Of a stretch of DNA of 64,000 nucleotides, positions 17,550 through 54,687 are shown in pieces. The DNA is from Deltaproteobacteria bacterium GWC2_55_46. GTDB taxonomy: Bacteria > Desulfobacterota > GWC2-55-46. The stretch lies in the NCBI GenBank assembly GCA_001595385.3, contig LVEI03000001.1, forward strand, positions 2,485,344-2,549,343, in the 5' to 3' direction. Below the pieces are notes generated by a model that worked only from the letters and a program-made list of their open reading frames with translations, was not told the DNA's origin and searched no databases. Both the position numbers and the translations under genes were made by a program. Each line of letters begins with the position of its first letter. Position 1 is the stretch's first letter.

Positions 17550-20351
17550 ATGAGAGTACTATCTACCATGGTTTTTTTTCTGCTTTCGCTCTGTATGAGA
17601 ACAGCCGCCGCTGATGAGAATCGCTGCGTATTGCCCCAGGGCCTGACCGGCTTTCAGTCGGAAGTGCTTACGAAAGACGAGTGCGAAAAGGTCTCCTCGG
17701 AGATAATGAAAAAAGAAAGGGCGCAAGCAGAGATTTTAAATAAGCTCGGCGGAAAGACAAAGGCCGTGGTAGAACCTGCCGAAATATCTTCGGCTGTAGA
17801 GGCCCGGGAAACTACCGACGTCCAATCTTCAGTTCCACAGCCGTCTTTGTTCGACAGATACATCTCGGCAACTCAGAAGTGGGACGTGCAGGCCTCCTCC
17901 CTCAAGCCTTTCGGCTACGATATATTCACCACTGGCTCGGCCTCGCAGCAGAATCTGCCCGTGTCGCAGGATTATGTTATAGGGCCCGGTGACGAGATAC
18001 AGGTGCTCCTGTGGGGCAGGGTCACCGGACAGTACAGCCTTTCCGTAAACAGGGACGGTACGATTCAGTTCCCGAACGTCGGCCCTCTGACGGTTTCCGG
18101 CATGACTTTCGAGAAGATGAAGTCATATCTCTCCTCCAAGGCCGGTAAAATCGTCGGCACGCAGATAAGTGTCACCATGGGCAGGCTCAGAAGCATTCAG
18201 GTCTTTGTCCTCGGGGAAGTAAAAAGGCCCGGCGCCTACGAGATAAGCGCTATGTCGACTGTCACAAACGCTCTCATGGCTTCCGGAGGGGCTTCAGGTA
18301 TAGGGTCGCTTCGGCGAGTTGATCTGAAAAGGGGCAACATGACCGTAGCGTCGATAGATTTCTATGAACTTCTCACAAGCGGCGACAAGAGCTCTGATCT
18401 AAGGCTCCACGACTCCGACGTTGTGTTCGTCAATGTCGTTGGTCCGATAGTGGGAATAGCGGGAAATGTCAAGAGGCCCGCGGTATATGAGCTGAAGGAA
18501 TCGACAGACCTTGCAGCCGCCCTCAGGCTTGCCGGAGGGACCATTCCCACCGCCTTTACCCAGAGGCTGCAGGTCGAAAGGGTGCAGGACAACCTCAAGA
18601 AGGTCGTCATTGACATAGATGCCTCGCAAGAGGCAGCCGCGAGGTCTTTCATTCTCCTTGATGGAGACTTTATCAAGGTGTTCCCGGTGGTGGACAGGGA
18701 CTCCAACGCCGTCTACCTCGAGGGGAACGTAAAAAGGCCCGGCAAATACGAGCTTAAGAAAGGGATGCGTGTCAGGGACATAATAAAGGACGAGAGGGAT
18801 CTCCTTGAGGAATCGGCCCTTGATTATGCCATTGTGAAAAGGTTTTCAGCTCCGGCCATGAACGCCGTAATGCTCATGCCGTTCAATCCTGGCGCCCTTT
18901 TCAGCGGTTCTGAAAAAGACGATATCTCGCTTATGCCTGGAGACGTCATACAGATATTCTCCAGATGGGCTTTCATGGACAAGTCGACCGTGAGCATCTT
19001 CGGCGAGGTCAGGTGCGATAAGTTGAACGGCGGGCAGGACGCGGGGGGATGCTATTTCGAGCTCGAAAACAGATTGACTGTAAAAGACCTTGTCCATAAG
19101 GCGGGCGGCCTTACGAAAGACGCGTCCCTGGAGTGGTTAGAAATATACAGGACGGACAAGCGGAACAAGGAGGTCACCCTCATCAAGCTGAGCCTGGGGA
19201 GCGCCCTTTCAGGGGACAATCGGGACAATATCATGCTTGAGGACATGGACAGGGTCGTGGTCCATTCGGTCCGGGAGACTACCCCTCAGAGCTATGTCAC
19301 ACTGCACGGCGCGTTGAACAGGCCTGGCAAATATCCTTATGCCTCCAACATGACTGTAAAGGACATGGTTTTTGCCGCCGGAGGTGTTCACGAATCGGCG
19401 TATCTCGAAGACGCGGAGCTTGCCATCGGCACGGTGGCTGATTCGAGGAACTACGTATTCGAGTACAGGAAGATAGATCTTTCCAAGGCTCTTGCCGGGG
19501 ACCCTGAGCACAATCTGCCCGTGCCGCCTTACGCAAGTCTTTTCGTCATGCAGGTACGCAACTGGCAGTCCGAACTGTTCGTGGAGCTTAAGGGAGAGTT
19601 CGTCAACCCCGGCAACTACAGGATAAAAAGGGGAGAGAAGCTAAGCTCGGTCATCAAGAGGGCCGGCGGTTTTACCACAAGGGCATACCTCAAGGGCGCC
19701 GTGTTCACCAGGGAGTCCATAAGGGACTTTCAGCAGAAAAACATCGACGAGGCGGCAAGCAGGCTGGAAAAGGTTCTTCTGTCCTCGGCGCCTTCGGAAA
19801 TTGAGGGCGCCATGGGCCCGGAGGCCGCGAAGCAGGCTCAGGCGGCCATAGAGCAGAAAAAGGCGTTGATCGCGCAGATGAGGGCCTCAAGGGCCGAGGG
19901 CAGGATAGGCATAACGCTTGAGGAACACCTTGAAGGCACGCCCTATGATTTCGAGTTTGAGGACAAGGACGTTCTTACGGTGCCCAGCAGGCCAAGCCAG
20001 GTGCAGGTCATGGGCTCGGTTTATAACCAGCTCGCTTTCCTTTACACCCCGGATGCGACTGTGGAGGGCTACCTCAAGAAAGCTGGCGGCACGACCGCCA
20101 ATGCGGACGAGGATGCGATATTCATCTTGAAGGTGGACGGTACCGCGGTGAGCAAGAAAGAAAGCAGTTGGGATTCGGGCAGCAAAAGCTGGTTCTCTGG
20201 CGGTTTCATGTCCGCGAAGCTCAACCCCGGGGACACGATAATAGTGCCGGAGAAGCTCGATAAAATCCATTGGCTCCGCGAGATAAAGGATTTAACCCAG
20301 ATACTCTACCAGATAGCAGTGACGGCGGGTGTATTGATAGTGGTTTTCTGA
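17550..20351 (+). CDS. Large SLBB-repeat polysaccharide export protein (Wza-like)
   Basis: A 933-aa secreted or envelope protein, far longer than Wza (about 380 aa). It has a signal peptide (MRVLSTMVFFLLSLCMRTAAA), a polysaccharide-export domain at about residues 110-200 (YVIGPGDEIQVLLWG, DGTIQFPNVGPL), and then roughly seven SLBB units. These are recognisable by G.V.RPG.YEL and AGG motifs (GEVKRPGAYEI, GNVKRPAVYEL, GNVKRPGKYEL, GALNRPGKYPY, GEFVNPGNYRI). A hydrophobic segment (ILYQIAVTAGVLIVVF) ends the protein. Wza-type proteins form the outer-membrane exit channel; the C-terminal helix may be the membrane-spanning part. I chose ATG 17550 because it begins the signal peptide. It is the first gene of the rightward array. 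Confidence 0.9.
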   Translation: MRVLSTMVFFLLSLCMRTAAADENRCVLPQGLTGFQSEVLTKDECEKVSSEIMKKERAQAEILNKLGGKTKAVVEPAEISSAVEARETTDVQSSVPQPSLFDRYISATQKWDVQASSLKPFGYDIFTTGSASQQNLPVSQDYVIGPGDEIQVLLWGRVTGQYSLSVNRDGTIQFPNVGPLTVSGMTFEKMKSYLSSKAGKIVGTQISVTMGRLRSIQVFVLGEVKRPGAYEISAMSTVTNALMASGGASGIGSLRRVDLKRGNMTVASIDFYELLTSGDKSSDLRLHDSDVVFVNVVGPIVGIAGNVKRPAVYELKESTDLAAALRLAGGTIPTAFTQRLQVERVQDNLKKVVIDIDASQEAAARSFILLDGDFIKVFPVVDRDSNAVYLEGNVKRPGKYELKKGMRVRDIIKDERDLLEESALDYAIVKRFSAPAMNAVMLMPFNPGALFSGSEKDDISLMPGDVIQIFSRWAFMDKSTVSIFGEVRCDKLNGGQDAGGCYFELENRLTVKDLVHKAGGLTKDASLEWLEIYRTDKRNKEVTLIKLSLGSALSGDNRDNIMLEDMDRVVVHSVRETTPQSYVTLHGALNRPGKYPYASNMTVKDMVFAAGGVHESAYLEDAELAIGTVADSRNYVFEYRKIDLSKALAGDPEHNLPVPPYASLFVMQVRNWQSELFVELKGEFVNPGNYRIKRGEKLSSVIKRAGGFTTRAYLKGAVFTRESIRDFQQKNIDEAASRLEKVLLSSAPSEIEGAMGPEAAKQAQAAIEQKKALIAQMRASRAEGRIGITLEEHLEGTPYDFEFEDKDVLTVPSRPSQVQVMGSVYNQLAFLYTPDATVEGYLKKAGGTTANADEDAIFILKVDGTAVSKKESSWDSGSKSWFSGGFMSAKLNPGDTIIVPEKLDKIHWLREIKDLTQILYQIAVTAGVLIVVF

Positions 20352-20640
20352 TGTTTCAGGTACTGCCCGGCAAGGGATGAACCGAAGCAAGCGTTAGACC
20401 GGCAGCAAGGTTAAAAGGCGGCACTCCTCCAGGAAAACTCATCTCCGATTCCAGCCAAGTCCTGTCAGACCTTTTTCAACTCGAAAACACTCCAAGCGAT
20501 CAGGGGCTCAGTCATAGCGTTTCGAATCCGCTCCCGAGTTAGCATTGCGAAACAGGTGCCGGGTCCAGTTCTCATGTGATCCGCCGAGGCGCTCAGGGTT
20601 TTGCGTGAAGACAAAACGAATCGTAAGCAAAAGGGTAGCT

Positions 20641-21984
20641 TTGGCTAAAGTCCTGTTGATATCGCCTCCTTTTTACCGCCTGATGGGGAGCCATTATAAC
20701 GGCATCCACCTGGGACTTTGCTACATAGCCTCTGTGTTGAATAAAAAAGGCTACGACACAAAGATATATAACGCGGATTTTCTTGACAGCGTGACATATT
20801 CGAACCAGAAGGAGCTTTTTGACAACTTCGATGTCTATATCAAGATACTGAACGACCCTGCCCAACCCGTCTGGCAAGAGGTCGCTGACATGATAAGAAA
20901 AGCAAGTCCAGAGTACATAGGCATCCAGATGTACACCGGCACATTCAAAAGCGCCCAGATGGTAGCGTCCATCGCCAAGTCCCTGAACCCTGAGGTCAAG
21001 ATAGTCGTAGGCGGCACGCACCCTTCGCTCGACCCGCTCGGCACTATAAAGTGCGAGCACTATGACTATGTGATAAGGGGGGAAGGCGAATACACCTTTA
21101 CGGAGATACTCGAAGGCAAAGACCGTGGAGGCATCAAAGGTCTAACCTTCAGGGATGATAACGGCAAGATAGTGAGCAATCCTCCCAGGGACTTTATTGA
21201 CGACCTGGATTCGCTTCCCTTCCCCGCGAGGGATAGGCTTTTCAACGGCAATGGGAACACCGATACCGGGGCAATCATCACCGGCCGGGGCTGCCCGTTC
21301 CAGTGCTCATACTGCGCCAGCCCAGAGCTTTCAAACAAGAAGACGAGATACAGAAGCGTTGAGAACGTCCTTTCCGAGCTTGAATTCATGACAAAGCGCC
21401 TCAATATCTCTCTTGTCCGCTTTCAGGACGACACATTCACTCTTAACAAGAGCCGCACCTCCGAGATATGCGAGGGGATACTGAGAAAGGGGCTCGCCTT
21501 CCAGTGGGTTTGCGACACCAGGGTAGACAGGATTGACAGGGAACTTTTGAAGCTGATGAAGCGTGCCGGGTGCATAAGAGTAAAGATAGGCGTGGAGTCC
21601 GGCAGCGACGAGATCCTCAAGAAGGTGAGAAAAGGCGTGACCGTGGAAAGAATAAGAAGGGGGGTAGGGGTCATAAAGGAGGCCGGCATACCGCTTACCA
21701 TATATCTGATGATCGGCTTTCCGGGGGAGACCGACGAGGACGTAAAAAAGACGATACGCTTCGCACGGGAGATAGACGCCGACTACAACAGCTTAAGTGT
21801 CGTAGCGCCGTACTACGGTACCGGAATTTACAAGAATCTTGTAAAGGATGGCTTCGAGTTCGCCAAAAACAACTGGGAATATTTCTTCCACCAGAGCAGG
21901 GCCATGATTATGAACACGAAGATATCAAGGCAGGTGATCGACGAGTTTTTCGGGCTGAACGAGAGGAACAAGGAAAGGGTCTGA
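20641..21984 (+). CDS. B12-binding-type radical SAM protein 2
   Basis: A 447-aa protein. The N-terminal cobalamin-binding-type domain has KVLLISPPFYRLMG, YIGIQMYTGTF, KIVVGGTHPSLDP and VIRGEGEYTFTEIL; the radical SAM core starts at RGCPFQCSYC (Cys218, Cys222, Cys225) and continues with the FQDDTFTLNK and GVESGSDEILKKV motifs of this family. Start choice: TTG 20641, five bases after AAGGG, gives the usual family start; GTG 20605 is an alternative. It precedes the DegT aminotransferase by 3 bases, so it probably acts on the same sugar or its glycoside. The reaction is not predictable. Confidence 0.87.
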   Translation: MAKVLLISPPFYRLMGSHYNGIHLGLCYIASVLNKKGYDTKIYNADFLDSVTYSNQKELFDNFDVYIKILNDPAQPVWQEVADMIRKASPEYIGIQMYTGTFKSAQMVASIAKSLNPEVKIVVGGTHPSLDPLGTIKCEHYDYVIRGEGEYTFTEILEGKDRGGIKGLTFRDDNGKIVSNPPRDFIDDLDSLPFPARDRLFNGNGNTDTGAIITGRGCPFQCSYCASPELSNKKTRYRSVENVLSELEFMTKRLNISLVRFQDDTFTLNKSRTSEICEGILRKGLAFQWVCDTRVDRIDRELLKLMKRAGCIRVKIGVESGSDEILKKVRKGVTVERIRRGVGVIKEAGIPLTIYLMIGFPGETDEDVKKTIRFAREIDADYNSLSVVAPYYGTGIYKNLVKDGFEFAKNNWEYFFHQSRAMIMNTKISRQVIDEFFGLNERNKERV

Positions 21985-24239: not shown

Positions 24240-25196
24240 ATGTACAGGGAAAAACGGATATCACTTGTCATACCGGCATACAACGAAGCGAGGTTGATCG
24301 GGCCTACACTCGAAAGGGTCCCCGGGATAATAGACAAGATCTATGTCGTCGATGACTGCAGTCCGGACAATCAGAACGAGGTCGTTCTGCGATACGCGGA
24401 GAAAGACCCGAGGATAGAGCTTCTTAAGCACGAGGTTAACCAGGGGCCCGGCGGAGCCATCATAACCGGGTATCTGCGCTCCGCGAAGGACGGATTTGAC
24501 ATCTCCATCGTGGTCGGCGGGGATAATCAGATGCCGCTTGAGGAAGTAGAGCGTTTTTTGAACCCGTTGATAGACGGCAGGGCGGACTATACCAAGGGGA
24601 ACCGCTTCCTGCTCCTTCAGGTAGACGACACGCTCAAAAAGATGCCCAGGACGAGGCTATTTGGAAACTGGCTGATCACGTCTCTTACAAAGATAGCATC
24701 GGGCTACTACAAGACCATGGACGTGGTAGATGGGTACACTGGCATCACAAGGGAAGCGATCCTGATGATCAACTGGTCAAACGCGTGGAGGGGCTACGGA
24801 TATCCCATGGACTTCCTGATACGCCTGAACGCATACGGTTTCAGGATAATTGATATCCCGAGGACGGCCATCTACCTGCCTGGCGAGAGGCAATCCCAGA
24901 TAAAGGGCTTGAATTATGCGCTAAAGGTCGCGCCCATGCTGGTGCGCAATTTTTTCTGGAGACTGAACTTCAGGTACATATACAGGGACTTCCATCCGCT
25001 GGTGTTTTTCTATTACTTCTCGTTACTGCTTTTGCCGGCCGGCGTTCTGTTCGGGTTGTACCTCGTGGCAAAGCAGTTTGTCTTCCAAACCGGGGTCTCC
25101 GGCCCGCAGGCCATATTCTGCGCCATGCTGGTCATCATGGGTTTTCAGAGTTTGCTTTTTGCGATGCTCTTTGACATGCAGGAAGGCCATAAATGA
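24240..25196 (+). CDS. GT2-family glycosyltransferase with C-terminal membrane helices
   Basis: A 318-aa protein with a GT-A domain of the dolichol-phosphate-mannose-synthase type (ISLVIPAYNEARLIGPTLE, VVDDCSPDN, VVGGDNQMP) and two C-terminal hydrophobic segments (about 255-280 and 290-312). The metal-binding DxD is in the modified form GGDNQ. Proteins of this build usually transfer a sugar to polyprenyl phosphate at the inner leaflet, which would supply GT-C enzymes such as the ArnT-like protein at 44607-46166 (inference). The end overlaps the next radical SAM gene by 4 bases. Confidence 0.85.
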   Translation: MYREKRISLVIPAYNEARLIGPTLERVPGIIDKIYVVDDCSPDNQNEVVLRYAEKDPRIELLKHEVNQGPGGAIITGYLRSAKDGFDISIVVGGDNQMPLEEVERFLNPLIDGRADYTKGNRFLLLQVDDTLKKMPRTRLFGNWLITSLTKIASGYYKTMDVVDGYTGITREAILMINWSNAWRGYGYPMDFLIRLNAYGFRIIDIPRTAIYLPGERQSQIKGLNYALKVAPMLVRNFFWRLNFRYIYRDFHPLVFFYYFSLLLLPAGVLFGLYLVAKQFVFQTGVSGPQAIFCAMLVIMGFQSLLFAMLFDMQEGHK

Positions 25197-27834: not shown

Positions 27835-27975
27835 CGCAAGATATTCAGTGAAACTCTGAAAGATTCTCGGTTGATGACATCGCGAGGTCTGGAGACAGGG
27901 CAATCTCAAAGTCGATTTGCCTGGAAGCGAGAATTGGTTCTCTCGCTTCCGTTTATCGAAGAAGGAGGGTGGCGG

Positions 27976-28965
27976 ATGAAGGCGTTGGTGACGGGAGGGG
28001 CCGGGTTCATCGGCTCCCACGTGGCGGAGGAGCTATTGAGGAAAAAAATAGATTGCGTTGTGCTGGACGACCTCAGCGGAGGCTTCAAGGAGAATGTCCC
28101 TGACGGAGCGGAGTTCGTTTGCGGTTCCATACTCGATGAAGGGCTGGTAAACCGCCTTTTCGCCGAGCACCGATTCGACTACGTTTACCACCTTGCGGCC
28201 TATGCCGCCGAGGGGCTCAGCCACTTCATCAAGCGGTTCAATTACCAGAACAACCTTCTGGGAAGCGTGAATATCATAAACGCGTCCGTCAACTTCGGGG
28301 CGAAGTGTCTCGTCTTCACATCGTCCATCGCCGTGTACGGCAAAAACCAGCTCCCGATGAGCGAGGATCTGACGCCTACGCCCGAGGACCCTTACGGGAT
28401 AGCGAAATACGCGGTAGAGCAGGAGCTGAAGGTGTCGAAAGAGATGTTCGGCCTCGATTACATAATCTTCAGGCCCCACAACGTGTACGGCGAAAGGCAG
28501 AACACGGGCGACAGGTACAGAAATGTCATCGGGATATTCATGAACCAGATAACGCAGGGAAGTCCAGTTACGGTCTTCGGGGACGGCGAGCAGACAAGGG
28601 CCTTCAGCTATGTGGGCGACGTGGCCCCGGTGATAGCGGCTTCGGCCTTTAAGCCCGAGTGCTACGGTCATGTGTTCAATATCGGCGCCGACGAGGTCTA
28701 CACGGTAAACGAGCTTGCGAAAGAGGTGTTCAGGGCCATCGGGACAAAAACCTCGATAGATTACCTGGCCGAGAGGAAAGAGGTCAAGCACGCGTACTCC
28801 GACCATAGGAAGGTAAGGGAGTTCTTCGGGGACCGGAAAAGGACCGCACTGAGGGAAGGGCTCGCGAAGATGGCCGGATGGGTCAAGGAGGCGGGATGCA
28901 GGGAGAGCCCCAGGTTCGAGAACATCGAGATAAGGATGAACCTCCCCGAAGTCTGGACACTGTAG
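27976..28965 (+). CDS. NDP-sugar epimerase/dehydratase (extended SDR)
   Basis: A 329-aa extended SDR with TGGAGFIGSHVAEELL, the diagnostic LDDLSGG after the second strand, TSSIAVYG, the catalytic pair in PYGIAKYAVEQ (YxxxK), FRPHNVYGERQ and TRAFSYVGDV. This is close to the UDP-glucose 4-epimerase/UDP-glucuronate decarboxylase group. ATG 27976 follows GGAGGGTGGCGG; the longer frame to 27871 adds 35 residues without family character. It is followed after 10 bases by a GT2-like gene. Confidence 0.9.
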   Translation: MKALVTGGAGFIGSHVAEELLRKKIDCVVLDDLSGGFKENVPDGAEFVCGSILDEGLVNRLFAEHRFDYVYHLAAYAAEGLSHFIKRFNYQNNLLGSVNIINASVNFGAKCLVFTSSIAVYGKNQLPMSEDLTPTPEDPYGIAKYAVEQELKVSKEMFGLDYIIFRPHNVYGERQNTGDRYRNVIGIFMNQITQGSPVTVFGDGEQTRAFSYVGDVAPVIAASAFKPECYGHVFNIGADEVYTVNELAKEVFRAIGTKTSIDYLAERKEVKHAYSDHRKVREFFGDRKRTALREGLAKMAGWVKEAGCRESPRFENIEIRMNLPEVWTL

Positions 28966-28975
28966 GCGGACATCC

Positions 28976-29791
28976 ATGAGGAGCGCCCGGAGCGGCAAAA
29001 AGATAGGGCTCATGATCCCGTGCTATAACGTTGAGCCTTTCATTGCGGACGTGCTGCGCGGGATACCGGAAGGCGTCTACGAAAGGCTGGAGACGCTTCT
29101 TGTCATAGACAACCACAGCGAGGACAGGACAAGAGAGGCCGTGCTGCGTACTCGCAGCGAGATGTCCCGCGGAAGGATCAGGCTTCTTTGCAACAGGAGG
29201 AACCTCGATCTCGGAGGGAGCTACAAGGCAGGATTCGACTACTTCATAGGCAACTCATTCGACTATCTCATCGTGGTCCACGGCCGTGGCCAGGGACAGG
29301 CCGGCGTGGACGCGGAGAACTTCATAAGGATCATCGATTCGGGAGACCTCTTCGATTTCATGGGGTGCAGCAGGTTCCTCAACAGAAGCGAGCTTACAAA
29401 CTATCCGGCTCTAAGGAGGTACGGCAATTACCTGGTGATAGGGCTTCAGCGCCTGGCGACCGGCAAAGGGATGTCGGATCCCGGCACGGGCCATTTCTGC
29501 GTGAATCTGAAGACGCTGGCCACGATCCCGTACCGTAACCTTACCAGCAAGAGGCATTTTAATAATGAGCTTCAGATGAGCCTTGCGCTTAAAGGAGCGG
29601 TGATGAGGGAGGTCCCCCACGTGTGGCATGCGTTCTCCTACGAAAAGGCGAAGTTCAACATCTGGACGCTCGGGTTCGACATAGTGGGTTCGCTTACGAA
29701 GTTCTATCTCACAAAAAAGGGGCTCGCGAGGTTCAGGGAGTTTTCAGGGGAACAAGATGCCGTTAAAAATCCGGAAGACGACATCATCTGA
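28976..29791 (+). CDS. GT2-like protein lacking a canonical DxD motif
   Basis: A 271-aa protein with a GT-A fold start (KIGLMIPCYNVEPFIADVL, VIDNHSEDRT, NLDLGGSYKAGFDYF). At the place where GT2 enzymes carry D-x-D (usually DADGQ), it reads VHGRGQGQ, so the metal-binding aspartates are gone. The rest (GCSRFLNRSEL, PGTGHFCVNLKTL) is well conserved with polyprenol-phosphate-type GT2s. Either it has another donor-binding mode or it is a catalytically altered partner of the GT2 at 24240-25196. No membrane helices are visible at the C-terminus, unlike that paralogue. Confidence 0.78.
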   Translation: MRSARSGKKIGLMIPCYNVEPFIADVLRGIPEGVYERLETLLVIDNHSEDRTREAVLRTRSEMSRGRIRLLCNRRNLDLGGSYKAGFDYFIGNSFDYLIVVHGRGQGQAGVDAENFIRIIDSGDLFDFMGCSRFLNRSELTNYPALRRYGNYLVIGLQRLATGKGMSDPGTGHFCVNLKTLATIPYRNLTSKRHFNNELQMSLALKGAVMREVPHVWHAFSYEKAKFNIWTLGFDIVGSLTKFYLTKKGLARFREFSGEQDAVKNPEDDII

Positions 29792-29816
29792 CAGGTTGCG
29801 TAAAAACGCAACCTGT
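29791..29816 (+). terminator. Hairpin directly after the GT2-like gene
   Basis: A perfect 11-base inverted repeat (ACAGGTTGCGT / ACGCAACCTGT) with an AAAA loop starts at the last base of the stop codon. It resembles an intrinsic terminator, although only TT follows it. It may instead protect the 3' end of the transcript. Confidence 0.5.
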
Positions 29817-29817: not shown

Positions 29818-29985
29818 AAGCAATCCATGGGCGATTGCCCCTGGGTGCTCGCCGTCTCACGAAGTGATAAGGCGAGCTATGCAAAAGCAATTTTTCCTGC
29901 CGGGCAGAACGGAGTTCTGCCATTCACTTCGGCCAAGTCGTTGCTGAAAAAGCCATGGATGGACTTTTTCAGCATCCTGCTAAGA
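29818..29985. repeat. Dispersed palindromic repeat, long copy
   Basis: The left end AAGCAATCCATGG (29818-29830) and the right end with GCTGAAAAAG / CTTTTTCAGC (29943-29952 and 29964-29973, a perfect 10-base stem) both recur in the short copy at 6393-6450. About 110 bases of unique non-coding DNA lie between. The ends are roughly inverted (CAATCCATGG versus CCATGGATGG), which suggests a small non-autonomous mobile element. It fills the gap between the GT2-like gene and the flippase-kinase fusion. Confidence 0.6.
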
Positions 29986-29989: not shown

Positions 29990-32131
29990 ATGAATAAACG
30001 CTTTCTCATAATCCTTTTCGGCGGCGGGGTCCTTGTGAGCGGGGCATACTTCTATTTCTTCTTCAAGGAGAACCATTTCGCCATGGCCGCATTTCCAGCG
30101 ACACTGAGGTTGCAGTACGCCCTTTACGCGGCGCTTTTTTTCCTTGCCGGAGAATTCGTCCGCGTAAAGAACTCCCAGATACTCGTCGGCCTGATAGCAC
30201 CGAACAGGTTCGCAGACCTTTTCCGGGCGCAGGCGTTCGGGTCGCTCTTTAACGTGTTCATGCCTTTCCGCACAGGAGAGCTTGTGAGGGCATATGTGCT
30301 CGGAAGGATGCTGACCTGCAGCAGGACCTCCATTTTAATGACCATAGTTGTGGAAAGGATGGCGGACCTCCTCGTGCTCGTCTTTTTCCTCTCCGGCCTC
30401 CTGGCCTTCAACTCGCTGTTTCTCAAGATGGCCTTTTTGAACTCCCCGTCATTTTATCTGCTCTACGCCTACCTGCTGGCGCTTTTCCTCGCGGCCTTGG
30501 TCGTTCTTTACCTCATGGCCTCGCAGAACCGCTATCTGCTGAGAGCAATATACAGGTCCACTGTCCTTTTCAATGACGCAATCAGAGACCGGCTGAGGTA
30601 CGCATTGTGGGGAAGCATCTGCTCAGTACGCACAATATTCCTGAAGGCAAGGCTGGGCAGGTATGTCGCTCAGGCGGCCGCCATGTGGCTACTGTACGTC
30701 TCCGGGGCCTTTTTCGCGGTCAAGGCCTTCTATCTTTTTGAGCCGTGGCAGGCCCTTTTCCTTTCGTTCTCAAGCTTCCTGTGCCTGGCCGTCCCGTCGG
30801 GGCCGGGCTTCCTTGGGACATTCAACTATTATTTTCTTGAGATCCTTCGCCCTGTCACAGGGGGGGGAGGGGCCGAAAGCCATGTCGTGTTCACTTTTTT
30901 TATATGGGGCCTGATCGTCATGACGCCTGTTACATCGGGCGGGATTTTTCTTTTATTGTACAAGAGGCAGAAATCGCCATTCGACCGAAACGACCTCTAC
31001 CTCAACAAGCTCATGAGACATGACAACATATCTTCCGACTTAAGCCACTTCCTGGACGAATATTTTTCCCAGAACATGATCTACAGCATAGTCACAGGGT
31101 TCGAGACCGAAGGGGCCTCGAAGGTGATGACGGTCTTCAAGGGAGGCTCGAACGCGGTGACGCTCTTGATGTGTGGCCAGGACAGGGACAAGTTCGTCCG
31201 CAAAATAGCGTTGCCCCAATACGAGGGAAAACTGAGGGCGCAGTACCAGTGGCTCCGGTCCTACGACCTTCCTGAGTTCCCCAAGCCTCTTTCCTGCTCG
31301 AAGAACGAGAGGTTTTACTGCTACGACCTCAAGTACTACGGCGAGTACGCGCCGTTTTTCGATTACATTCACAAGAACCCGCTTGCCAGTTCCGTAAAGG
31401 TGCTCGAATCGATACTCGATTTCATGAACAGGAGGGTCTATCTGAACGGCAGGCAGGTACGGTCTGAAAAGACGATGAGCGAATACATAAGCCGCAAGGC
31501 AGTGGGCAAGGTCATGGATGTTGCCGCCATGAGCCCCGTAATGCGAAGGCTCCTAAGCTTCGAACAGATAGAGATAAACGGGATCCTTTACGACAACTTT
31601 CATTCGATCCTTCGCAAGATCATGGACTCAAAGGAGATTTTAGAGGAGCTTTCGAGCTTTCGCGAATGCCAGATACACGGAGACCTAACGGTAGATAACA
31701 TAATCGTAAATGACGGCAGGTTCATACTTCTTGACCCTAATGACGAGAACGCGGTCTCCGACCCGATGGTTGACATAGCGAAGCTGTACCAGTCGCTGCA
31801 CTCAGGGTATGAGTTCCTCTGCGATATAAACGAGGTAAGGGTCGACGGCCATAGGATAAGCTTCAAGGAGCAGCTATCGAACAGGTACCAGAACCTTTTC
31901 CACAGCCTCGACCGGAAGATGAGAAGAGAACTGGCGCCGAAGGACTACAGGTCGCTATTTTTTCATGAGGGCGTACACTACTGCAGGATGCTGCCTTACA
32001 AGGCAAGGCAGAACGAGCATACGCTTCCGCTTTTCTATTCGGTAGGTGTGCGCCTTTTCAACGAATACTATGCGCAGTGCACGAAAGAAAAAAACTCTGA
32101 AAAGGTCGAGGGGCTGAGATGGGCACATTGA
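29990..32131 (+). CDS. Fusion of YbhN/LPG-synthase-type membrane domain and an APH-like kinase
   Basis: A 713-aa two-part protein. Residues 1-325 form a multi-spanning domain of the UPF0104/lysylphosphatidylglycerol synthase TM family (RFADLFRAQAFGSLFNVF, PFRTGELVRAYVLGR, VVERMADLLVLVFFLSG, PSGPGFLGTFNYYFLE); related proteins act on lipid-linked substrates at the membrane. Residues 350-713 form a soluble aminoglycoside/choline-kinase-like domain with the catalytic loop HGDLTVDN (563-570) and the metal site LDPND (581-585). The next gene, overlapping by 13 bases, is a nucleotidyltransferase-HAD protein, the usual partner of a small-molecule kinase. I infer phosphorylation of an alcohol or sugar destined for NDP activation; fusion to the membrane domain is unusual. 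Confidence 0.82.
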   Translation: MNKRFLIILFGGGVLVSGAYFYFFFKENHFAMAAFPATLRLQYALYAALFFLAGEFVRVKNSQILVGLIAPNRFADLFRAQAFGSLFNVFMPFRTGELVRAYVLGRMLTCSRTSILMTIVVERMADLLVLVFFLSGLLAFNSLFLKMAFLNSPSFYLLYAYLLALFLAALVVLYLMASQNRYLLRAIYRSTVLFNDAIRDRLRYALWGSICSVRTIFLKARLGRYVAQAAAMWLLYVSGAFFAVKAFYLFEPWQALFLSFSSFLCLAVPSGPGFLGTFNYYFLEILRPVTGGGGAESHVVFTFFIWGLIVMTPVTSGGIFLLLYKRQKSPFDRNDLYLNKLMRHDNISSDLSHFLDEYFSQNMIYSIVTGFETEGASKVMTVFKGGSNAVTLLMCGQDRDKFVRKIALPQYEGKLRAQYQWLRSYDLPEFPKPLSCSKNERFYCYDLKYYGEYAPFFDYIHKNPLASSVKVLESILDFMNRRVYLNGRQVRSEKTMSEYISRKAVGKVMDVAAMSPVMRRLLSFEQIEINGILYDNFHSILRKIMDSKEILEELSSFRECQIHGDLTVDNIIVNDGRFILLDPNDENAVSDPMVDIAKLYQSLHSGYEFLCDINEVRVDGHRISFKEQLSNRYQNLFHSLDRKMRRELAPKDYRSLFFHEGVHYCRMLPYKARQNEHTLPLFYSVGVRLFNEYYAQCTKEKNSEKVEGLRWAH

Positions 32132-33180
32132 TAGTGCCTTGCGCAGGGCGCTCAACGAGGTTTCCCATGGTCAGGCCGAAGTGGATGCTCACCTATCCCG
32201 ACGGCAAGCTCATGGCGGAAAAGGCGGTGGAAGGCCTTAGTCTGCCTTTCGCTGCAAGGGTGATCGTGACCGTGGTAGATGAACACTGCCGTAGATACTC
32301 GGCTGATAAGGTGGCTGCCCAGGCCTTCGGCGGCAAGGCCGAGGTCTGCGTCCTCGACGGGTTTACCCGGTCGCAGAGCGAGACGATTGCGATGACGATA
32401 AGGAAGATGGGGGTAAGCGGCCCGCTTGTGGCGAAGGACTCTGACGGATTCGTGAAAGTGGGCATTGAAAGGCCGGGCAACTTCCTGGTCGGCGTGGATA
32501 TAAGGAAAAGACGTGAGGTAAGGGACGTGGGCTCGAAGAGCTTTATAGTCCTCGACGGGGACAGGCGCGTTGCCGACATAGTGGAGAAGTCGGCAAGCTC
32601 GAACATTATCTGCACAGGGGTCTACGGGTTTGAATCCGCCGAGGGTTTTCTTGATGTTTACGATGAGATAGACGGCTCATGGCAGGGCAAAGGCGAGATA
32701 TATCTCAGCCATGTAGTCTCGCGCCTTATACGCAGAAAAAGCGCCTTCGCGTTCCTTGAAGCGGAGGACTACGAGGACTGGGGGCTTCTCTGCGACTGGT
32801 ACAGGGTCTTGAGGCGCAAAAGGACTTACTTCATAGACGTGGACGGGGTCATCTTCAGGAACAAGGGGAAGTACGGGCTGGACAACTGGGACGGCGAGGA
32901 CGAGCCCCTTGCAAATAACATCTCGGTCATCAAGGGATGGGCCGAGCAGGGCGCGCAGATAGTCGTGTGCACCTCAAGGCCGGAGAGGTACAGGGAGAAG
33001 CTCGAAGCCTCTCTTAAAAGGCACGGGATAAGCTGGCACTCCATCGTCATGGGCTGCAATCACGCTCAAAGGGTAATCGTAAACGACTTCGCAAGGACAA
33101 ACCCGTACCCTTCTTGCTCGGCCGTAAGCATCCCGCGCGACGGCGATGAGCTTGATAAGTACGCCTTGTCTGAAGAATAG
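32119..33180 (+). CDS. Nucleotidyltransferase fused to a HAD-like phosphatase domain
   Basis: A 353-aa protein. The N-terminal NTP-transferase domain carries PCAGRSTRFPMVRPKWML, a variant of the GxGxRxxPxTxxxPK signature, and a later CTGVYGFESAEGFL. From about residue 235, a HAD domain has motif I YFIDVDGVIF, a motif II-like VVCTSRPERY and a late IVNDF. Such proteins sit in capsule clusters next to an APH-like kinase and make an NDP-activated substituent. The overlap with the kinase fusion supports this. The HAD part could trim a phosphate or be regulatory. Substrate not deducible. Confidence 0.85.
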   Translation: MGTLIVPCAGRSTRFPMVRPKWMLTYPDGKLMAEKAVEGLSLPFAARVIVTVVDEHCRRYSADKVAAQAFGGKAEVCVLDGFTRSQSETIAMTIRKMGVSGPLVAKDSDGFVKVGIERPGNFLVGVDIRKRREVRDVGSKSFIVLDGDRRVADIVEKSASSNIICTGVYGFESAEGFLDVYDEIDGSWQGKGEIYLSHVVSRLIRRKSAFAFLEAEDYEDWGLLCDWYRVLRRKRTYFIDVDGVIFRNKGKYGLDNWDGEDEPLANNISVIKGWAEQGAQIVVCTSRPERYREKLEASLKRHGISWHSIVMGCNHAQRVIVNDFARTNPYPSCSAVSIPRDGDELDKYALSEE

Positions 33181-33189: not shown

Positions 33190-34104
33190 TTGGGCGGCAG
33201 GCAGCCGGTAACGTACGCATACCTGGAGACAACGAACTTCTGCAACATCGACTGCAGGTTCTGCAACAGAAGGGATGTCGTCAGGCAGCCCAGGCACATG
33301 GGCCTCAAGGAGTGGGATATCGTGCTCGATAAACTGTCCTCGGAGCCGATCAGGGAGGCCAAGCTAATGGGCCTCGGAGAGCCGTTCCTGCATCCTGAGT
33401 TTCATAAGATATGCCGCAGGTTCAAGGAGACTTTCCCGGAGGCCTTTACCATCACAGCGACCAATTGCCAGCATGGATTGAACGGCAACTTCATCAAGGC
33501 GCTGCCTTTCATAGGGCTGCTCTATCTTTCGGTGGACGGGCATGCTGAAAACTACGAGAGGGAAAGAAGGGGCGCGAGATGGGCCAGGTTGCTGAGGTTC
33601 CTGGACGGGCTCTCAGCCGTCGACAGGGGGCAGACGCGCATGGCAATAAACTTCGTAGTTACCGACAGGAACTGCCGGGACATAGAGAAGATCAATCTCC
33701 TTGTGCGCGAGAGGTATCCCTGGATCGAGGAGGTCAGGCTGAATATAGCCCAGTGGTGGGGCGAGGGGCAGGACATAAGGGTGGAGTTCACAGAGAATCT
33801 TTATGAGACCCTGATCAGGTACAAAACAAACGTGAAAGGCAAGGCGCCCTGGGATTTTCACGATTGCTTCTGGCCCAGAAGCGGCTTCTACATGGACGTG
33901 AACGGAGACGTGAGGATATGCTGCCTGAATACGTCGTCGAGCCCGGTGGGCAACATATTCAGGTCTTCACTCGACGAGCTGCTCGGCTCGCCTAAGAGGC
34001 TTCAGGTGGCCGAGGAATGCAGGCTGGACAGCCCTGGCGTCCACTGCAGGAGGTGCGACTACAAGAAGCTTTCAAGCGTGCTTGAAAGGATCTTCAGAGA
34101 GTGA
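33190..34104 (+). CDS. Radical SAM protein with SPASM-like C-terminus (A)
   Basis: A 304-aa protein that starts directly with the radical SAM core: ETTNFCNIDCRFC (Cys18, Cys22, Cys25). The C-terminus has further cysteines (DVRICCLNT and CRRCDYKKL) as in SPASM/twitch domains that bind an auxiliary Fe-S cluster. The TTG start at 33190 is set by the strong GAGGAGGAG at 33181-33189 and lies 9 bases after the upstream stop. It lacks a cobalamin-binding domain. SPASM-type enzymes include peptide modifiers and sugar or alcohol dehydrogenases; its place after the kinase and nucleotidyltransferase genes favours a small-molecule or sugar substrate (inference). Confidence 0.85.
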   Translation: MGGRQPVTYAYLETTNFCNIDCRFCNRRDVVRQPRHMGLKEWDIVLDKLSSEPIREAKLMGLGEPFLHPEFHKICRRFKETFPEAFTITATNCQHGLNGNFIKALPFIGLLYLSVDGHAENYERERRGARWARLLRFLDGLSAVDRGQTRMAINFVVTDRNCRDIEKINLLVRERYPWIEEVRLNIAQWWGEGQDIRVEFTENLYETLIRYKTNVKGKAPWDFHDCFWPRSGFYMDVNGDVRICCLNTSSSPVGNIFRSSLDELLGSPKRLQVAEECRLDSPGVHCRRCDYKKLSSVLERIFRE

Positions 34105-34108
34105 GCGC

Positions 34109-35500
34109 ATGCGCATGAAGATACTTCTTATCGTTCTCGACAAGGGATCTTACGTCAATTTCTTTCCGCTCGCGGCGGCTTATCTCGCCTCCGCGGCCAG
34201 GATGCGCGGTTACAGGGACATAACCATATACAACCAGGAGGTCTATCACTATCCGGACGAGGCCATAAAAGACTTTCTCGATAAGGAGCGGTTCGACGTG
34301 CTGGGGGTCGGGATATACGGCTACCAGCAGTACATAAAGGCCGTCAGCTTCCTCGCCCAAGTCAACGCGTCGAAGCACAGGCCGACGGTTGTTCTAGGAG
34401 GCCACGGCCCCACGGCCGCCCCCGAATACTTCATCAGGAAGCTGGAGGCCGACATCGCTGTCCTTGGCGAAGGGGAGACGGTTTTTTGCAACCTTCTCGA
34501 CGCGCTTTCGTCCAAAAGGCCTCTTGAAGGGGTCAAGGGCATAGCCTACCGCTATGGGGTTGAAGTCAGGGTCAACGAGAGGGAGAAGCTCGTAACAGAG
34601 CTCGACTCGGTCCCGTTCCCGGCATGGGACCTCTTCCCCATGGAGCACTACGTCCTTGAGAGGCACATAGCCGCTTCCCACACGGACAGGTGCTTCCCTG
34701 TGCTTGCAAGCAGGGGATGCGTCTACCGGTGCAACTTCTGCTACAGGATGGACACCGGCTACAGGCTGAGGAGCGTTGAGAACGTGATGGAGGAGATAAA
34801 GAAGCTCAGGAAGGACTACAACGTTACCCATATAACGTTTGCCGACGAGAATCTCATGGTATCTGAAAAGCACATACTCAGGTTCGTGGAGGGCATCGGG
34901 AAACATGGGCTGGAGTTCGGATGGAACTGCATGGGCAGGCTCAAGGTGGCAAGGCCGCATATCCTCAAGAGGGTGAAGGAGGCCGGCTGCGTTTACATAA
35001 ACTACGGCGTCGAATCCCTCGACCAGAAGGTCCTCGACATGATGAACAAGAAACAGACTGTTGAGGAGGCGTATCAGGGCGTGGAGAACACTATAAAGGC
35101 AGGCATGCACCCGGGGCTGAACATTATCTGGGGCAGCCCCGGGGATACGGCGGAATCGCTAAGGAAAGGGGTGGATTTCCTCAACAGGTACAATACCGGC
35201 ATACAGCTCAGGACCATAAAGCCAGTGACCCCGTATCCGGGGACCGCGCTCTTCAAGCTTGCGGTTGAAAGGGGGCTTCTTAAAGACGCGGAGGACTTCT
35301 ACTCGAAGTACGTCAACTCCGACAGGATGACCGCGAATTTCACGGACATACCTGACGAGGAGTTCTACAGGCTCCTTTTCGAGGCGAACAGGACGGTCAT
35401 AAACAATTATTATGGCAAGCTCGACGCCAACGCGGTCGAGGGCTTCAGGAGATGCTACTTCGAGCACGATACCTCATTCAGAGGCCCCAGGCACAGGTAA
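34109..35500 (+). CDS. B12-binding-type radical SAM protein 4
   Basis: A 463-aa protein with MKILLIVLDKGSYVNFFP, the cobalamin-binding-type strands FDVLGVGIYGYQQY, TVVLGGHGPTAAPE and VLGEGET, then the radical SAM motif RGCVYRCNFC (Cys204, Cys208, Cys211), FADENLMVSEKH and YGVESLDQKVLDMM. Two ATGs at 34109 and 34115 are possible; an upstream in-frame TTG at 34082 lies inside the previous gene. It begins 4 bases after SPASM protein A, so the two radical SAM enzymes are expected to be made together. Reaction unknown. Confidence 0.87.
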   Translation: MRMKILLIVLDKGSYVNFFPLAAAYLASAARMRGYRDITIYNQEVYHYPDEAIKDFLDKERFDVLGVGIYGYQQYIKAVSFLAQVNASKHRPTVVLGGHGPTAAPEYFIRKLEADIAVLGEGETVFCNLLDALSSKRPLEGVKGIAYRYGVEVRVNEREKLVTELDSVPFPAWDLFPMEHYVLERHIAASHTDRCFPVLASRGCVYRCNFCYRMDTGYRLRSVENVMEEIKKLRKDYNVTHITFADENLMVSEKHILRFVEGIGKHGLEFGWNCMGRLKVARPHILKRVKEAGCVYINYGVESLDQKVLDMMNKKQTVEEAYQGVENTIKAGMHPGLNIIWGSPGDTAESLRKGVDFLNRYNTGIQLRTIKPVTPYPGTALFKLAVERGLLKDAEDFYSKYVNSDRMTANFTDIPDEEFYRLLFEANRTVINNYYGKLDANAVEGFRRCYFEHDTSFRGPRHR

Positions 35501-35527: not shown

Positions 35528-36646
35528 ATGAGCAGGAGCAAACCCTGGCTTGATTCTGTGGTAAGGGTCCCTAACGCAGTTGTGGAGAGGCACTCAAACA
35601 AGGCCCGGCTGGACAAGAGCGAGAGGCTGACGCGGTTTGCAGAAGGGTTTTTCGGAAGGTTCATAAGCTCGATAACGCAGGAAGACATCCTGTGCTACCC
35701 TGAAACGACAGGGCTTGTGCAGAGGCTTGCTGCCCATCACGGGCTGAAGGAGCGCAACTTTTTTCTCGTGCCCGGCGTTGACGCTGCGATAAAGGCATTT
35801 TTCGAATCATACGTATCTCCCGGAGGCGAGGTCATAATAACCGAGCCGTGTTTCCCGATGTACAGGGTGTACAGCGATCTTTTCAACGCCAGGGCCGTAA
35901 AGGTCCCCTATGTTACGAGGGACACGCTGGACTTCTCCAGGCTCCTTGATTCGATAAACAGGGATACCGCGCTTTTGGCCATCGCGAATCCCAATAGCCC
36001 CCTGGGCGACTTCATAGAGATAGGCGTTCTTGAGTCGGCCGTCAGGAAATGCGGCGGCTACGGGATACCCGTGCTGATAGACGAAGCGTACCGCGAATAC
36101 GCGCCAGATTCGGCCATAGGCCTTATAGAGAGATACGACAATGTAGCCATAGCCCGGACATTCTCAAAGGCCTTCGGCGGGGCAGGGCTCAGGGCAGGAT
36201 ATCTGGCAGGAAGCTTCAAGATCATCGATGAGCTGTCGAAATGGCGCCTTCTGTACGAGATCAACCAGGTCGCGGTCAAGTTCGCCTCTTACATGCTCGA
36301 CAACATGACCGAGGTCATCGATTACGCGGAGAAGACCATAAAAGAGCGCGAGCTTCTCGTCTCTCTGCTTGAGGGAGCGGGTTATGACGTGATCCCGTCG
36401 AAAACGAATTGGTTGCATATGCACGGCAGAGATGAGAACGACAAGGTCCTTGACGTGCTGAAAAGACACAATGTCCTTTTCAAGACGGACTCGAGGATAC
36501 CGGTTGACCGCAGGGACTGGATACGCCTGACCGTAGGCCCGGATCTGTCAAAAACACGGTTTATGACTGAGATATTGGCTGGCGTTAATGGGCGAGCAAA
36601 AGGGACGCGCAAACTGGGAGACTTCAAACGCAGTATCAAGGCATGA
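35528..36646 (+). CDS. HisC/CobD-like PLP-dependent aminotransferase or decarboxylase
   Basis: A 372-aa fold-type I PLP enzyme: VPGVDAAIKAFFESYVSPG, IANPNSPLGDF (for the usual NPNNPTG), IDEAYREYAPD and the PLP-lysine loop ARTFSKAFGGAGLRAGYLAG. It is closest in pattern to histidinol-phosphate aminotransferase and threonine-phosphate decarboxylase. The only nearby genes are glycan and activation genes, with no histidine or cobalamin genes in the window. In capsule loci relatives of this type decarboxylate serine- or threonine-phosphate to feed CDP-ethanolamine-type donors. With the kinase and nucleotidyltransferase at 30-33 kb, such a role is plausible but inferred. Confidence 0.85.
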   Translation: MSRSKPWLDSVVRVPNAVVERHSNKARLDKSERLTRFAEGFFGRFISSITQEDILCYPETTGLVQRLAAHHGLKERNFFLVPGVDAAIKAFFESYVSPGGEVIITEPCFPMYRVYSDLFNARAVKVPYVTRDTLDFSRLLDSINRDTALLAIANPNSPLGDFIEIGVLESAVRKCGGYGIPVLIDEAYREYAPDSAIGLIERYDNVAIARTFSKAFGGAGLRAGYLAGSFKIIDELSKWRLLYEINQVAVKFASYMLDNMTEVIDYAEKTIKERELLVSLLEGAGYDVIPSKTNWLHMHGRDENDKVLDVLKRHNVLFKTDSRIPVDRRDWIRLTVGPDLSKTRFMTEILAGVNGRAKGTRKLGDFKRSIKA

Positions 36647-39342
36647 CTATCATGAACGGACATATGAGAGGCAAGACGCCTTATATTACCGCCCACAGGT
36701 TATTCATCAGCATTACGGGCACCGTGGCGCTCGTCTATCTGTTCAGGGAGCCCATCTTCTTCGGAAAGGCCCTTATCGGGCCTGAGATATGGAGCCAGGG
36801 GATTGCGGTGAACGACTTTGCCTTCGGCTCTCTGAAAAACGGGGTCCTTCCTTTGTGGCGCAGCGAGATCGACCTCGGCTATCCTATTATGGCGGAGCCA
36901 GCCTTTTCATACTGGCTCCATCCGATAAACATCCTTTTTCTGTTCCTGCCCGCCTATACGGCTGTCAATTATCTCCTGGTCGCGCACTACGCCATGAGCC
37001 TTTTTTTCATGTACTTTTTCGCCCTCGCTATCGGGATAGGCCGCATAGGGTCTTACATGGCTGCGGTTGTATATACGTTTTCCTCCGTCATGGTGAGCCA
37101 GTCCGACCAGTATTGCATTTCCCCCGCGATGGCGTGGCTGCCGCTTATCCTTCTTTTAATAAACACGGCTTATAAAAGACGCGATGCCAGGTTCTTTGCC
37201 GCCGCCGGGGCAGTCTACGGGTTCCAGTTCTTTCAGGGCCATGTGCAATTCTGGAGCTACACATTCCTGATGGCAGCTTTATTTATCGTCTATAAGGCGG
37301 CATCCATGGACGGTGGCCGCTCGGAAAGCAAGTGGGGCGAGGCTGTTTTTGCCGCCAGGGGGCTTGCGTTGGTTCTAGGGGCCGGGATAGGAATTGCGGC
37401 AATAAAATTCCTGCCGCTACTTGAGCTTTCAGGCCAGGGAGGCCGGGTTGAAAGCTCCGCCGGAGGGTTGGACTTTCTAACGTCGTCATATTACAGCATG
37501 AAACTTTCCGATCTGCCCCTGCTGGTATTTCCTGACCTATACGGAGCGCATCTGACCGAGGGCTTCGAGGGGTTCAACTCGGAATACAGCGCAGAAAGGT
37601 ACTGCTATATAGGGGTTGCGGCCCTGATTTTTGCCGCAACCGCGATTATGTCCGGTAAAAACGGGCACAAAAAGTTTTTTGGGTATGCCGCGGCTTTTTC
37701 CCTGATTTTCGCGATGGGGCGAGACCTGCCCTTCTATTTTTTTCAGTTTCATCTTGTCCCGGGCTTCGGAAACTTCCAGATACCGCTTAGGTATCTGTAC
37801 CTGTTCAGCTTCTCCGGGGCCGTTCTTGCCGGCATATGCATCGGCGCGGCCACGGACGGTTGTCAAGAGGGTCAAAAGGATAAAACAGCGAGGCTGGCAG
37901 GTCATCTTACGTTATTTTTGATGGCCACGGCCACGGCGATTATGCTTGCAGGATGGCTGCTGGCGCCTTACGCCGCGGAATTAAACAGATTCATGGGCCA
38001 AATTTCCAGCTCTTATGAGACCGGGCTTAAAATGTTCGCCACGGCACCCGTGGAGTCGCTATATTCCAGGAGCTTTTACAGGCAGATTGCGCCCCGGTTC
38101 CTTTTATCCTCGCAATTCCTCGTCCTTGTTCTGCCGGCGGCTGCCTATTTTCTCATGCGGCACAGGAAAAGGATCGCCGGGGACAGGCGCCTTATTTTAG
38201 TCGTTCACGCGGGTGCGGTCATGACCGCCCTGTGGATACTGCTCCGTTCGGGTTCGTTCCCGGAGAGGCTGGTGAACGAGCGCATCGGCAGGCAGCTTAT
38301 AATGCTCGCCTCCGTGTTGGTTTGCCTTTACCTCTGGAAAAAGGGCGTTTTAAAAAGCGCCGCTTTCGGATACCTGATGATTTTAATTGTACTATTAGAC
38401 CTCATAGGGCAGAACGGCAGGTATGTAAATACAATTGACAGTGAATTCTACAGTACCTATCCGAAGACAGCCATGTTCATAAAAAAAGACGGTTCTCTTT
38501 TCAGGGTAAATTACGCCATAGGGGATGAATACATGAAAAGGCACCGGATACAGTCTTATAGGCTGGATGACGGGGCGTACTATAAATGGAGGGAGACACT
38601 TGCTACGTCCTTTGTGTACGGAGGGATAAATATATGGAAGGGCGCGGACGGCAAGCCCTCCATAGGCATACAGAGGCAGAACGATTTCCACCATGCGTTT
38701 GAACGGGGCTACATGGAGGGGAGCCCTTCCGGGTCAGCGATATCGGCCCTCTCGCTGCTCAACGTCAAATACCTTGTGAGGACCGGGGAGCTCGACTCTA
38801 ATGACTTGAAGCTGGTCTACAGCCGGCCGGACGGCGTTAAGGTCTACGAAAACAAACAGGTCATGCCGAGGGCTTTTACCGTAGACGGTTCCGTAGTGCT
38901 TGCGAAGGAAAAAGTCCTTGAGTTCATGAAGGGAGGGCTTTTCGACCCTCGATCGGTCGTTATATTAGAAGAGCCAGCCGGAACGAATCCAGAGAAGCAC
39001 GGCGAAGGACAGCCCTGCGCCATGCCGGTAATCACCGCTTATTCGCAATCAAGGGTGACTCTGGAGACGGCGTGCGAAAGGCCGGGTTTTTTGGTCATGA
39101 GCGATTCGTATTACCCGGGGTGGAAGGCCTATATAGACGGGAACGAGACGAAGATATACCGGGCGAACTATGTCATGCGCTCTGTATCAGTGCCCGTGGG
39201 AGCCCACAAGGTCGAGTTCAAGTATGAACCAGAGGTATTCAGGGCCGGGGCCGTCATTTCAGCCGTAACGCTTGTGGCGCTTGTGTTATATCTTTCGCAG
39301 CCGTTCATCAGGCGCAAACACAGAGCGGCGCGCGCCGCATAG
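36643..39342 (+). CDS. YfhO-family large membrane protein
   Basis: An 899-aa protein with about a dozen transmembrane segments spread over residues 20-580, followed by an extracytoplasmic region and a last C-terminal helix. The late motif SYYPGWKAYIDGNETKI with the following HKVEFKYEP is the signature of the YfhO family, a GT-C-like group linked to teichoic acid and glycan glycosylation in Firmicutes. The N-terminal part includes LWRSEIDLGYPIMAEPAF, whose acidic residues could be GT-C catalytic residues. It probably uses a polyprenyl-phosphate sugar outside the membrane. It overlaps the PLP-enzyme gene (ATGA). Confidence 0.82.
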   Translation: MTIMNGHMRGKTPYITAHRLFISITGTVALVYLFREPIFFGKALIGPEIWSQGIAVNDFAFGSLKNGVLPLWRSEIDLGYPIMAEPAFSYWLHPINILFLFLPAYTAVNYLLVAHYAMSLFFMYFFALAIGIGRIGSYMAAVVYTFSSVMVSQSDQYCISPAMAWLPLILLLINTAYKRRDARFFAAAGAVYGFQFFQGHVQFWSYTFLMAALFIVYKAASMDGGRSESKWGEAVFAARGLALVLGAGIGIAAIKFLPLLELSGQGGRVESSAGGLDFLTSSYYSMKLSDLPLLVFPDLYGAHLTEGFEGFNSEYSAERYCYIGVAALIFAATAIMSGKNGHKKFFGYAAAFSLIFAMGRDLPFYFFQFHLVPGFGNFQIPLRYLYLFSFSGAVLAGICIGAATDGCQEGQKDKTARLAGHLTLFLMATATAIMLAGWLLAPYAAELNRFMGQISSSYETGLKMFATAPVESLYSRSFYRQIAPRFLLSSQFLVLVLPAAAYFLMRHRKRIAGDRRLILVVHAGAVMTALWILLRSGSFPERLVNERIGRQLIMLASVLVCLYLWKKGVLKSAAFGYLMILIVLLDLIGQNGRYVNTIDSEFYSTYPKTAMFIKKDGSLFRVNYAIGDEYMKRHRIQSYRLDDGAYYKWRETLATSFVYGGINIWKGADGKPSIGIQRQNDFHHAFERGYMEGSPSGSAISALSLLNVKYLVRTGELDSNDLKLVYSRPDGVKVYENKQVMPRAFTVDGSVVLAKEKVLEFMKGGLFDPRSVVILEEPAGTNPEKHGEGQPCAMPVITAYSQSRVTLETACERPGFLVMSDSYYPGWKAYIDGNETKIYRANYVMRSVSVPVGAHKVEFKYEPEVFRAGAVISAVTLVALVLYLSQPFIRRKHRAARAA

Positions 39343-54675: not shown

Positions 54676-54687
54676 AAGGTGACGGAC

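Follow-up and report, generated by a model that had tools for sequence, protein, structure and literature searches.

A UPF0104 membrane domain fused to an APH-fold kinase in a deltaproteobacterial polysaccharide locus

In the genome of Deltaproteobacteria bacterium GWC2_55_46, we analysed a stretch of 64,000 nucleotides (the window) in which the ORF at 29990-32131 forms one unbroken frame, with an ATG at 29990 and a stop codon ending at 32131, and encodes a protein of 713 aa. An initial annotation assigned a UPF0104 membrane domain to the first part of this protein and an APH-like kinase to the second, and both the domains and their coordinates agree with the ORF, with Pfam, and with the structure predicted for the kinase (Table 1). 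The next gene is the ORF at 32119-33180. A perfect inverted repeat (CAGGTTGCG-TAAAAA-CGCAACCTG; 29792-29815) directly follows the upstream GT2 gene and occurs once in the window. Just before the start codon of the fusion gene lies an element of ~60 bases with a strong hairpin (29922-29982; z -3.7), of which ~17 more full or partial copies with 82-96% identity occur genome-wide, in the manner of a REP-like dispersed palindrome.

Table 1. Coordinates of the fusion gene, its parts, and neighbouring genes in the window.
Feature	Coordinates	Strand	Evidence
NAD-dependent sugar epimerase/dehydratase, possibly donor pathway	27871..28965	+	Pfam Epimerase E 4.7e-54; epimerase also in L039 operon
GT2, ArnC/DPM1-like, without TM helix; proposed polyprenyl-phosphate loader	28976..29791	+	ArnC E 3.5e-4; Dol-P-Man synthase
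UPF0104/LPG_synthase_TM (PF03706) membrane domain, residues 1-325	29990..30964	+	Pfam E 1.3e-17; conserved family residues
Linker, residues 321-362, cytoplasmic by positive-inside reasoning (YKRQK past last helix)	30950..31075	+	pLDDT <50; hydropathy
APH/choline-kinase-fold kinase domain, residues 363-713	31076..32128	+	AF2 model; PDB fold matches; homologous to phage G gp311
K405, putative ATP-binding lysine	31202..31204	+	Near-invariant in 28 kinases, invariant in 5 fused proteins
Catalytic loop HGDLTVDN, residues 563-570 (D565 base, N570 metal)	31676..31699	+	H, G, D, N invariant in 28 kinases
D582, putative metal-binding Asp in LLDPND	31733..31735	+	Invariant in 28 kinases
Nucleotidyltransferase domain of next gene, overlapping fusion gene by 13 bases	32119..32802	+	NDP-sugar pyrophosphorylase 4evw E 1.4e-6
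HAD phosphatase-like domain, fused behind nucleotidyltransferase	32803..33177	+	Weak HAD_PNKP / HAD_SAK_2 / Hydrolase_6 matches
YfhO-type GT-C membrane protein, candidate user of flipped donor	36643..39342	+	Pfam YfhO E 1.7e-21; ~10 TM segments

The locus also carries a Wza-type exporter (17370-20351), a Wzx-type flippase (49229-50677), and a weak Wzy match (50626-51984). A second GT2 (24240-25196) has two C-terminal transmembrane helices, and a second, standalone UPF0104 gene (43625-44599) stands directly before a PMT-type (PMT_2) GT-C gene (44607-46166), so two loader/UPF0104/GT-C sets can be drawn in one locus. Scattered over 11632-56112 are ~10 radical SAM genes, several with B12-binding domains (examples: 11632-13524, 20545-21984, 34082-35500, 47610-49133, 53169-54617, and 54679-56112); the protein encoded at 34082-35500 scores far below the cut-offs of P-methyltransferase-type families.

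Two further genomes of the order, both MAGs, encode full-length fused proteins, with 78% (locus L002) and 41% (L003) identity to the window protein. The fused architecture is also present on a complete Pseudochrobactrum algeriensis plasmid (L038), where the RefSeq name describes the membrane domain only, and in a human-gut contig (L039; GenBank MT837550) filed as "Bacteriophage sp." The recognisable genes of this contig (L039:1-6634) all form a bacterial glycan operon, and MT837550 is probably no phage. An assembly error, which the initial annotation had raised as a possible source of the join, is ruled out by these full-length proteins of the same domain order, as is a frameshift artefact; the fusion of membrane domain and kinase is genuine. 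It is a new domain architecture built from known parts. The literature we searched, with incomplete coverage, yielded no paper on a UPF0104-kinase architecture, and the initial view that the domain order is uncharacterised stands; the order, though, is not unique to the source genome.

A genome-wide scan with the first kinase profile matched only the two known orthologues, and wider sampling of the phylum identified weak, unfused relatives only. Viral scans with the fused-protein profile and with the gut protein gave no match, and only three independent fused lineages were found. Compared with the 78% orthologue, the membrane half has a dN/dS of 0.13 and the kinase half one of 0.09, and both evolve under purifying selection; the linker has been conserved as well. 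The five fused proteins form one clade in the kinase trees (support 100/99) and one clade with the same branching in the membrane-domain trees (support 99/98). This agreement is consistent with a single old fusion; a single origin is likely, although long branches in the trees leave it short of proof.

Pfam identified LPG_synthase_TM over residues 13-309 of the window protein (64.7 bits versus a cut-off of 33.4; E 1.3e-17), and the residues conserved in the family are kept (N88, P92-x-R94-x-G96-E97-x-x-R100, E122-R123-x-x-D126, and P272-G273-x-x-G276). By the tests run, the protein is a member of UPF0104. This family is very common, with matches in 11 of the 14 well-known genomes used as controls; to our knowledge, its cargo is little characterised outside MprF. 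The full-length model places helices at residues 3-27, 41-66, 74-108, 112-145, 153-177, 196-248, 252-286, and 295-324, with those at 74-108 and 252-286 each made of two half-helices. This resembles the described flippase domain of PaMprF, which has eight transmembrane helices and two re-entrant hairpins (PMC11980842). The pLDDT of the model is mostly 45-76 in the membrane part and <50 in the linker (residues 321-362), which is predicted to be disordered; the arrangement of the two domains is not confident (pTM 0.52), and the model offers no usable interface. Based on basic residues at the N-terminus, in the loop at 176-225, and after residue 323, the kinase would lie in the cytoplasm, where ATP is. 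The plasmid and gut proteins have shortened, divergent membrane domains that lack PSGPGFxGTF and have partly lost the P-x-R-x-G-E-x-x-R, E-R-x-x-D, and P-G-x-x-G-T motifs.

In the kinase half, the Pfam match to APH (PF01636) covers residues 556-602 only and, at 18.8 bits, falls below the cut-off of 23.2; there was no Pfam match to Choline_kinase. Although its sequence has diverged too far for the curated families to recognise it, the kinase half alone was modelled with confidence by AlphaFold2 (mean pLDDT 86.6, pTM 0.86) from an alignment of 28 sequences from the window, related genomes, and viruses. Using Foldseek against the PDB, we identified APH-fold kinases, with the best match to APH(3')-IIIa (E 7e-7), and VIA-align 2 returned Z values of 16-18.5 for PsiK, maltokinase, glucosamine kinase, methylthioribose kinase, and aminoglycoside kinases; these values are nearly tied, and the fold therefore names no substrate. 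25-hydroxysteroid kinase is also among the fold matches. The motifs HGDLTVDN and LDPND from the initial annotation occupy residues 563-570 and 581-585. Across 28 homologues, K405 is near-invariant, and H563, G564, D565, N570, and D582 are invariant. Because these catalytic residues are conserved across the relatives, the kinase is probably active; the intact set rules out a degenerate pseudokinase and settles the earlier concern that nucleotide-binding residues might be missing.

The kinase is homologous to gp311 of Bacillus phage G and others (PHROG 21938, E 7e-22). The nearest solved sequence in the PDB is a choline kinase, only weakly matched (E 0.2 and 0.056), and by sequence the protein does not appear to belong to the choline kinases. 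Choline uptake and trapping is known as a two-protein system of LicB (permease) and LicA (kinase), and the membrane domain could likewise import a compound that the fused kinase traps as a phosphate. The weak choline kinase match would suit such vectorial uptake, as would the existence of LicA-LicC as a known pair of kinase and nucleotidyltransferase; however, lipids rather than solutes are the cargo of the UPF0104/MprF domain that has been characterised (PMC11980842), the HAD partner is absent from the Lic pathway, and the window proteins scanned with Pfam (those larger than small ORFs) include no LicD-type transferase. We regard uptake as very improbable.

The strongest functional clue, absent from the initial annotation, is a conserved module of kinase, nucleotidyltransferase (NTase), and HAD. 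The NTase of the next gene is related to the NTases of other loci, and a profile match links the window HAD to the HADs of other loci. The overlaps with the fusion gene (13 nt in the window and L002, 11 nt in L003, and 7 nt in L038) suggest translational coupling. A separate nucleotidyltransferase and an HAD of another type adjoin the fusion in L003, whereas the gene order is GtrA-GT2-NTase-fusion-HAD on the plasmid and GT2-epimerase-NTase-fusion-HAD on the gut contig. Unfused kinases of the same family keep the same company in Bacillus phage G (gp311-310-309) and cyanophage S-SKS1, and a Planktothrix plasmid encodes an NTase-kinase fusion plus an HAD. Kinase, NTase, and HAD thus occur together in the window/L002, L003, L038, L039, L040, L041, and L042. 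Among 53 IMG/VR contigs found by the kinase profile alone, an NTase is present in 48, an HAD in 41, and both in 39; these counts cover the fetched flanks, some of the contigs nearly duplicate one another, and several loci are truncated where the contig stops. The trio persists even where the HAD type changes, which suggests that its members act in one pathway that phosphorylates, dephosphorylates, and activates a compound with a nucleotide; we consider this part of our proposal likely. The module apparently has no name; it recurs in phages and bacteria, and we did not find an assigned function.

In cyanophage S-SKS1, an NTase is fused to a DHBP synthase (RibB; L041:4172-5599; PF00926, E 5e-65) beside the kinase, the HAD, and a transaldolase-like gene, and the NTase ORF is of similar length in several IMG/VR loci. 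The label "phosphoheptose isomerase" that PHROG 1238 places on L041:6548-6904 (118 aa) looks wrong, as Pfam identifies an HAD phosphatase.

The composition of the module bears on what the kinase phosphorylates and on why it is fused. The initial annotation suggested a lipid-linked alcohol as substrate, which the membrane domain would hold (e.g., a polyprenol or a lipid-linked sugar). The kinase is physically fused to a lipid-handling domain, and APH-fold kinases for hydrophobic alcohols exist, such as the 25-hydroxysteroid kinase named above. However, in dozens of viral loci, kinases of the same family have no membrane domain and stand beside the same soluble NTase and HAD partners; the substrate is therefore most probably a small, soluble compound that goes on to nucleotide activation, and we give a lipid-linked one little weight. 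It is similarly improbable that kinase and membrane domain serve separate reactions of one pathway and were joined without functional coupling. NTase-HAD, NTase-kinase, and NTase-HAD-kinase fusions all occur (the latter in L054, L057, and L061), so fusion in this module may be cheap and independent of order, but the fusion with the membrane domain appears old and single and has been retained in distant bacteria.

A GT2 adjoins the fused gene in the window/L002, L038, and L039, with 30-45% identity among lineages (the L003 flank is too short to judge), whereas 0 of the 53 unfused viral loci have a GT2 of this profile. L038 also encodes a polytopic protein with 11 transmembrane segments and no Pfam match, possibly a GT-C, and L039 encodes a partial one likewise. 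In MprF, the flippase domain is followed by a cytosolic synthase (PMC8131360); in archaeal AglD, UPF0104 is fused to a GT2 and predicted to flip lipid-linked saccharides (PMC5898192); and GpgF, encoded in a glycolipid operon, is another UPF0104 protein predicted to act as a flippase (PMC12713373). Taken with these precedents, the loci lead us to propose a route from kinase through NTase-HAD, GT2, and flipping to GT-C, in which the fusion protein would be a bifunctional, MprF-like protein of a surface-polysaccharide pathway. Its cytoplasmic C-terminal kinase would phosphorylate X, a small hydroxyl compound for which a sugar or polyol is the likeliest identity; the neighbouring NTase-HAD protein would convert X-phosphate to NDP-X, with the HAD part removing surplus phosphate; the ArnC/DPM1-like GT2 would transfer X to polyprenyl phosphate; the N-terminal UPF0104 domain would move lipid-linked X to the outer leaflet; and the YfhO-type GT-C enzyme would add X to a glycan. 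Fusing the first step to the translocating step would tie synthesis to export.

The proposal is built on the fusion and its conservation, the fold and catalytic residues of the kinase, the grouping of the trio, and the neighbouring GT2, all of which are observed. The role of the kinase is well supported, whereas flipping by the membrane domain, the polyprenyl carrier, the order of the steps, and the identity of X are inferred. For the full chain, we estimate a probability of roughly 45%. Against it, the ArnC matches of the GT2 proteins are weak (E 3.5e-4 in the window and only 0.098 in L038), the full-length model gives no confident domain arrangement, the window locus also has the Wzx-type flippase and the weak Wzy match, and only three independent fused lineages were found. 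The shortened L038 and L039 membrane domains without PSGPGFxGTF also count against it, as does the GtrA encoded by L038; GtrA is the usual flippase in such loader/flippase/GT-C systems.

These last two observations would fit a membrane domain that acts only as an anchor or scaffold, its flippase activity lost or unused, holding the kinase and perhaps its partners near the glycan-assembly enzymes. The initial annotation had likewise suggested that the kinase is tethered near the glycan machinery, and that part of its functional reading fits the polysaccharide locus, the overlapping NTase-HAD gene, and the ArnC-like GT2 ahead. In phages and other loci, the kinase also does its work with no membrane domain attached. 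However, the UPF0104 domain of the window lineage is complete, with its motifs kept and a low dN/dS; a 300-residue flippase fold is unneeded for anchoring; and a GT2 is found as a partner of the fused form alone. A mere anchor is rather unlikely. If the fusion protein does couple synthesis to flipping, it might stand for a class of flippase-kinases that join a UPF0104 lipid translocator covalently to the first enzyme of a kinase-NTase-phosphatase module for an activated sugar or polyol, with joint control of synthesis and translocation; we put this forward tentatively, as a doubtful generalisation. In plain terms, one component of the sugar layer on the cell surface is probably produced and carried outside by coupled machinery. 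A UPF0104-kinase fusion with defined metabolic partners shows the pathway served by one UPF0104 branch and offers a direct test. Identifying what the module makes would allow many surface-glycan loci to be annotated, as the module is found repeatedly in phages and in bacteria.

Several other identities were considered and set aside. PADLOC gave no match that would indicate an anti-phage defence protein. The Cj1436/Cj1437-type route yields serinol or ethanolamine phosphate; we found no link to it, and the PLP protein encoded at 35528-36646 best matches HisC-type structures. The heptose-type HddA/GmhB/HddC pathway follows a similar logic, but the kinase here has the APH fold, and no heptose isomerase or GHMP kinase is present among the window proteins scanned. 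A lead to a fructose capsule ended with the C. jejuni HS1-complex paper (PMC7901785), which is unconnected to the kinase-NTase-HAD trio.

Among known systems, gp311-gp310-gp309 of Bacillus phage G (PHROG 21938; kinase, HAD, and NTase) have the same kinase family and the same two partners; however, they lack the membrane domain and the GT2 neighbour. In the LicA/LicC pathway, a kinase of the choline-kinase/APH fold and a nucleotidyltransferase provide an NDP-activated group for glycans (PMC10434233), and the overlapping gene at 32119-33180 supplies the corresponding nucleotidyltransferase here; the HAD partner and the marginal similarity to choline kinase set our system apart. Extracytoplasmic glycosylation by GtrA/GtrB/GT-C, including a pentofuranose variant (PMC11127046), uses a loader, a flippase, and a GT-C. 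The window likewise has genes for DPM1/GtrB/ArnC-like GT2 proteins (28976-29791 and 24240-25196) and GT-C genes (YfhO, 36643-39342; PMT_2, 44607-46166), but UPF0104 takes the place of GtrA/MATE as the candidate flippase, and the kinase of the precursor pathway is fused to it. Archaeal proteins of the AglD type also tie UPF0104 to a DPM1-like GT2 in glycosylation (PMC5898192); here, the GT2 (28976-29791) is separate from the fusion (29990-32131), and the fused enzyme is a kinase.

The closest parallel is MprF, in which an N-terminal UPF0104-type flippase domain precedes a C-terminal cytosolic enzyme, so that one protein makes and moves a membrane-linked group, and whose flippase domain scrambles many lipids (PMC11980842). 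The C-terminal enzyme of MprF is an aminoacyl transferase (pfam09924), whereas here it is an APH-fold kinase with NTase and HAD partners, and Pfam found no match to the LPG synthase domain (PF09924) in the fusion protein. Lacking that synthase domain, the fusion protein is not an MprF; it is most like an MprF in which a kinase replaces the aminoacyl transferase.
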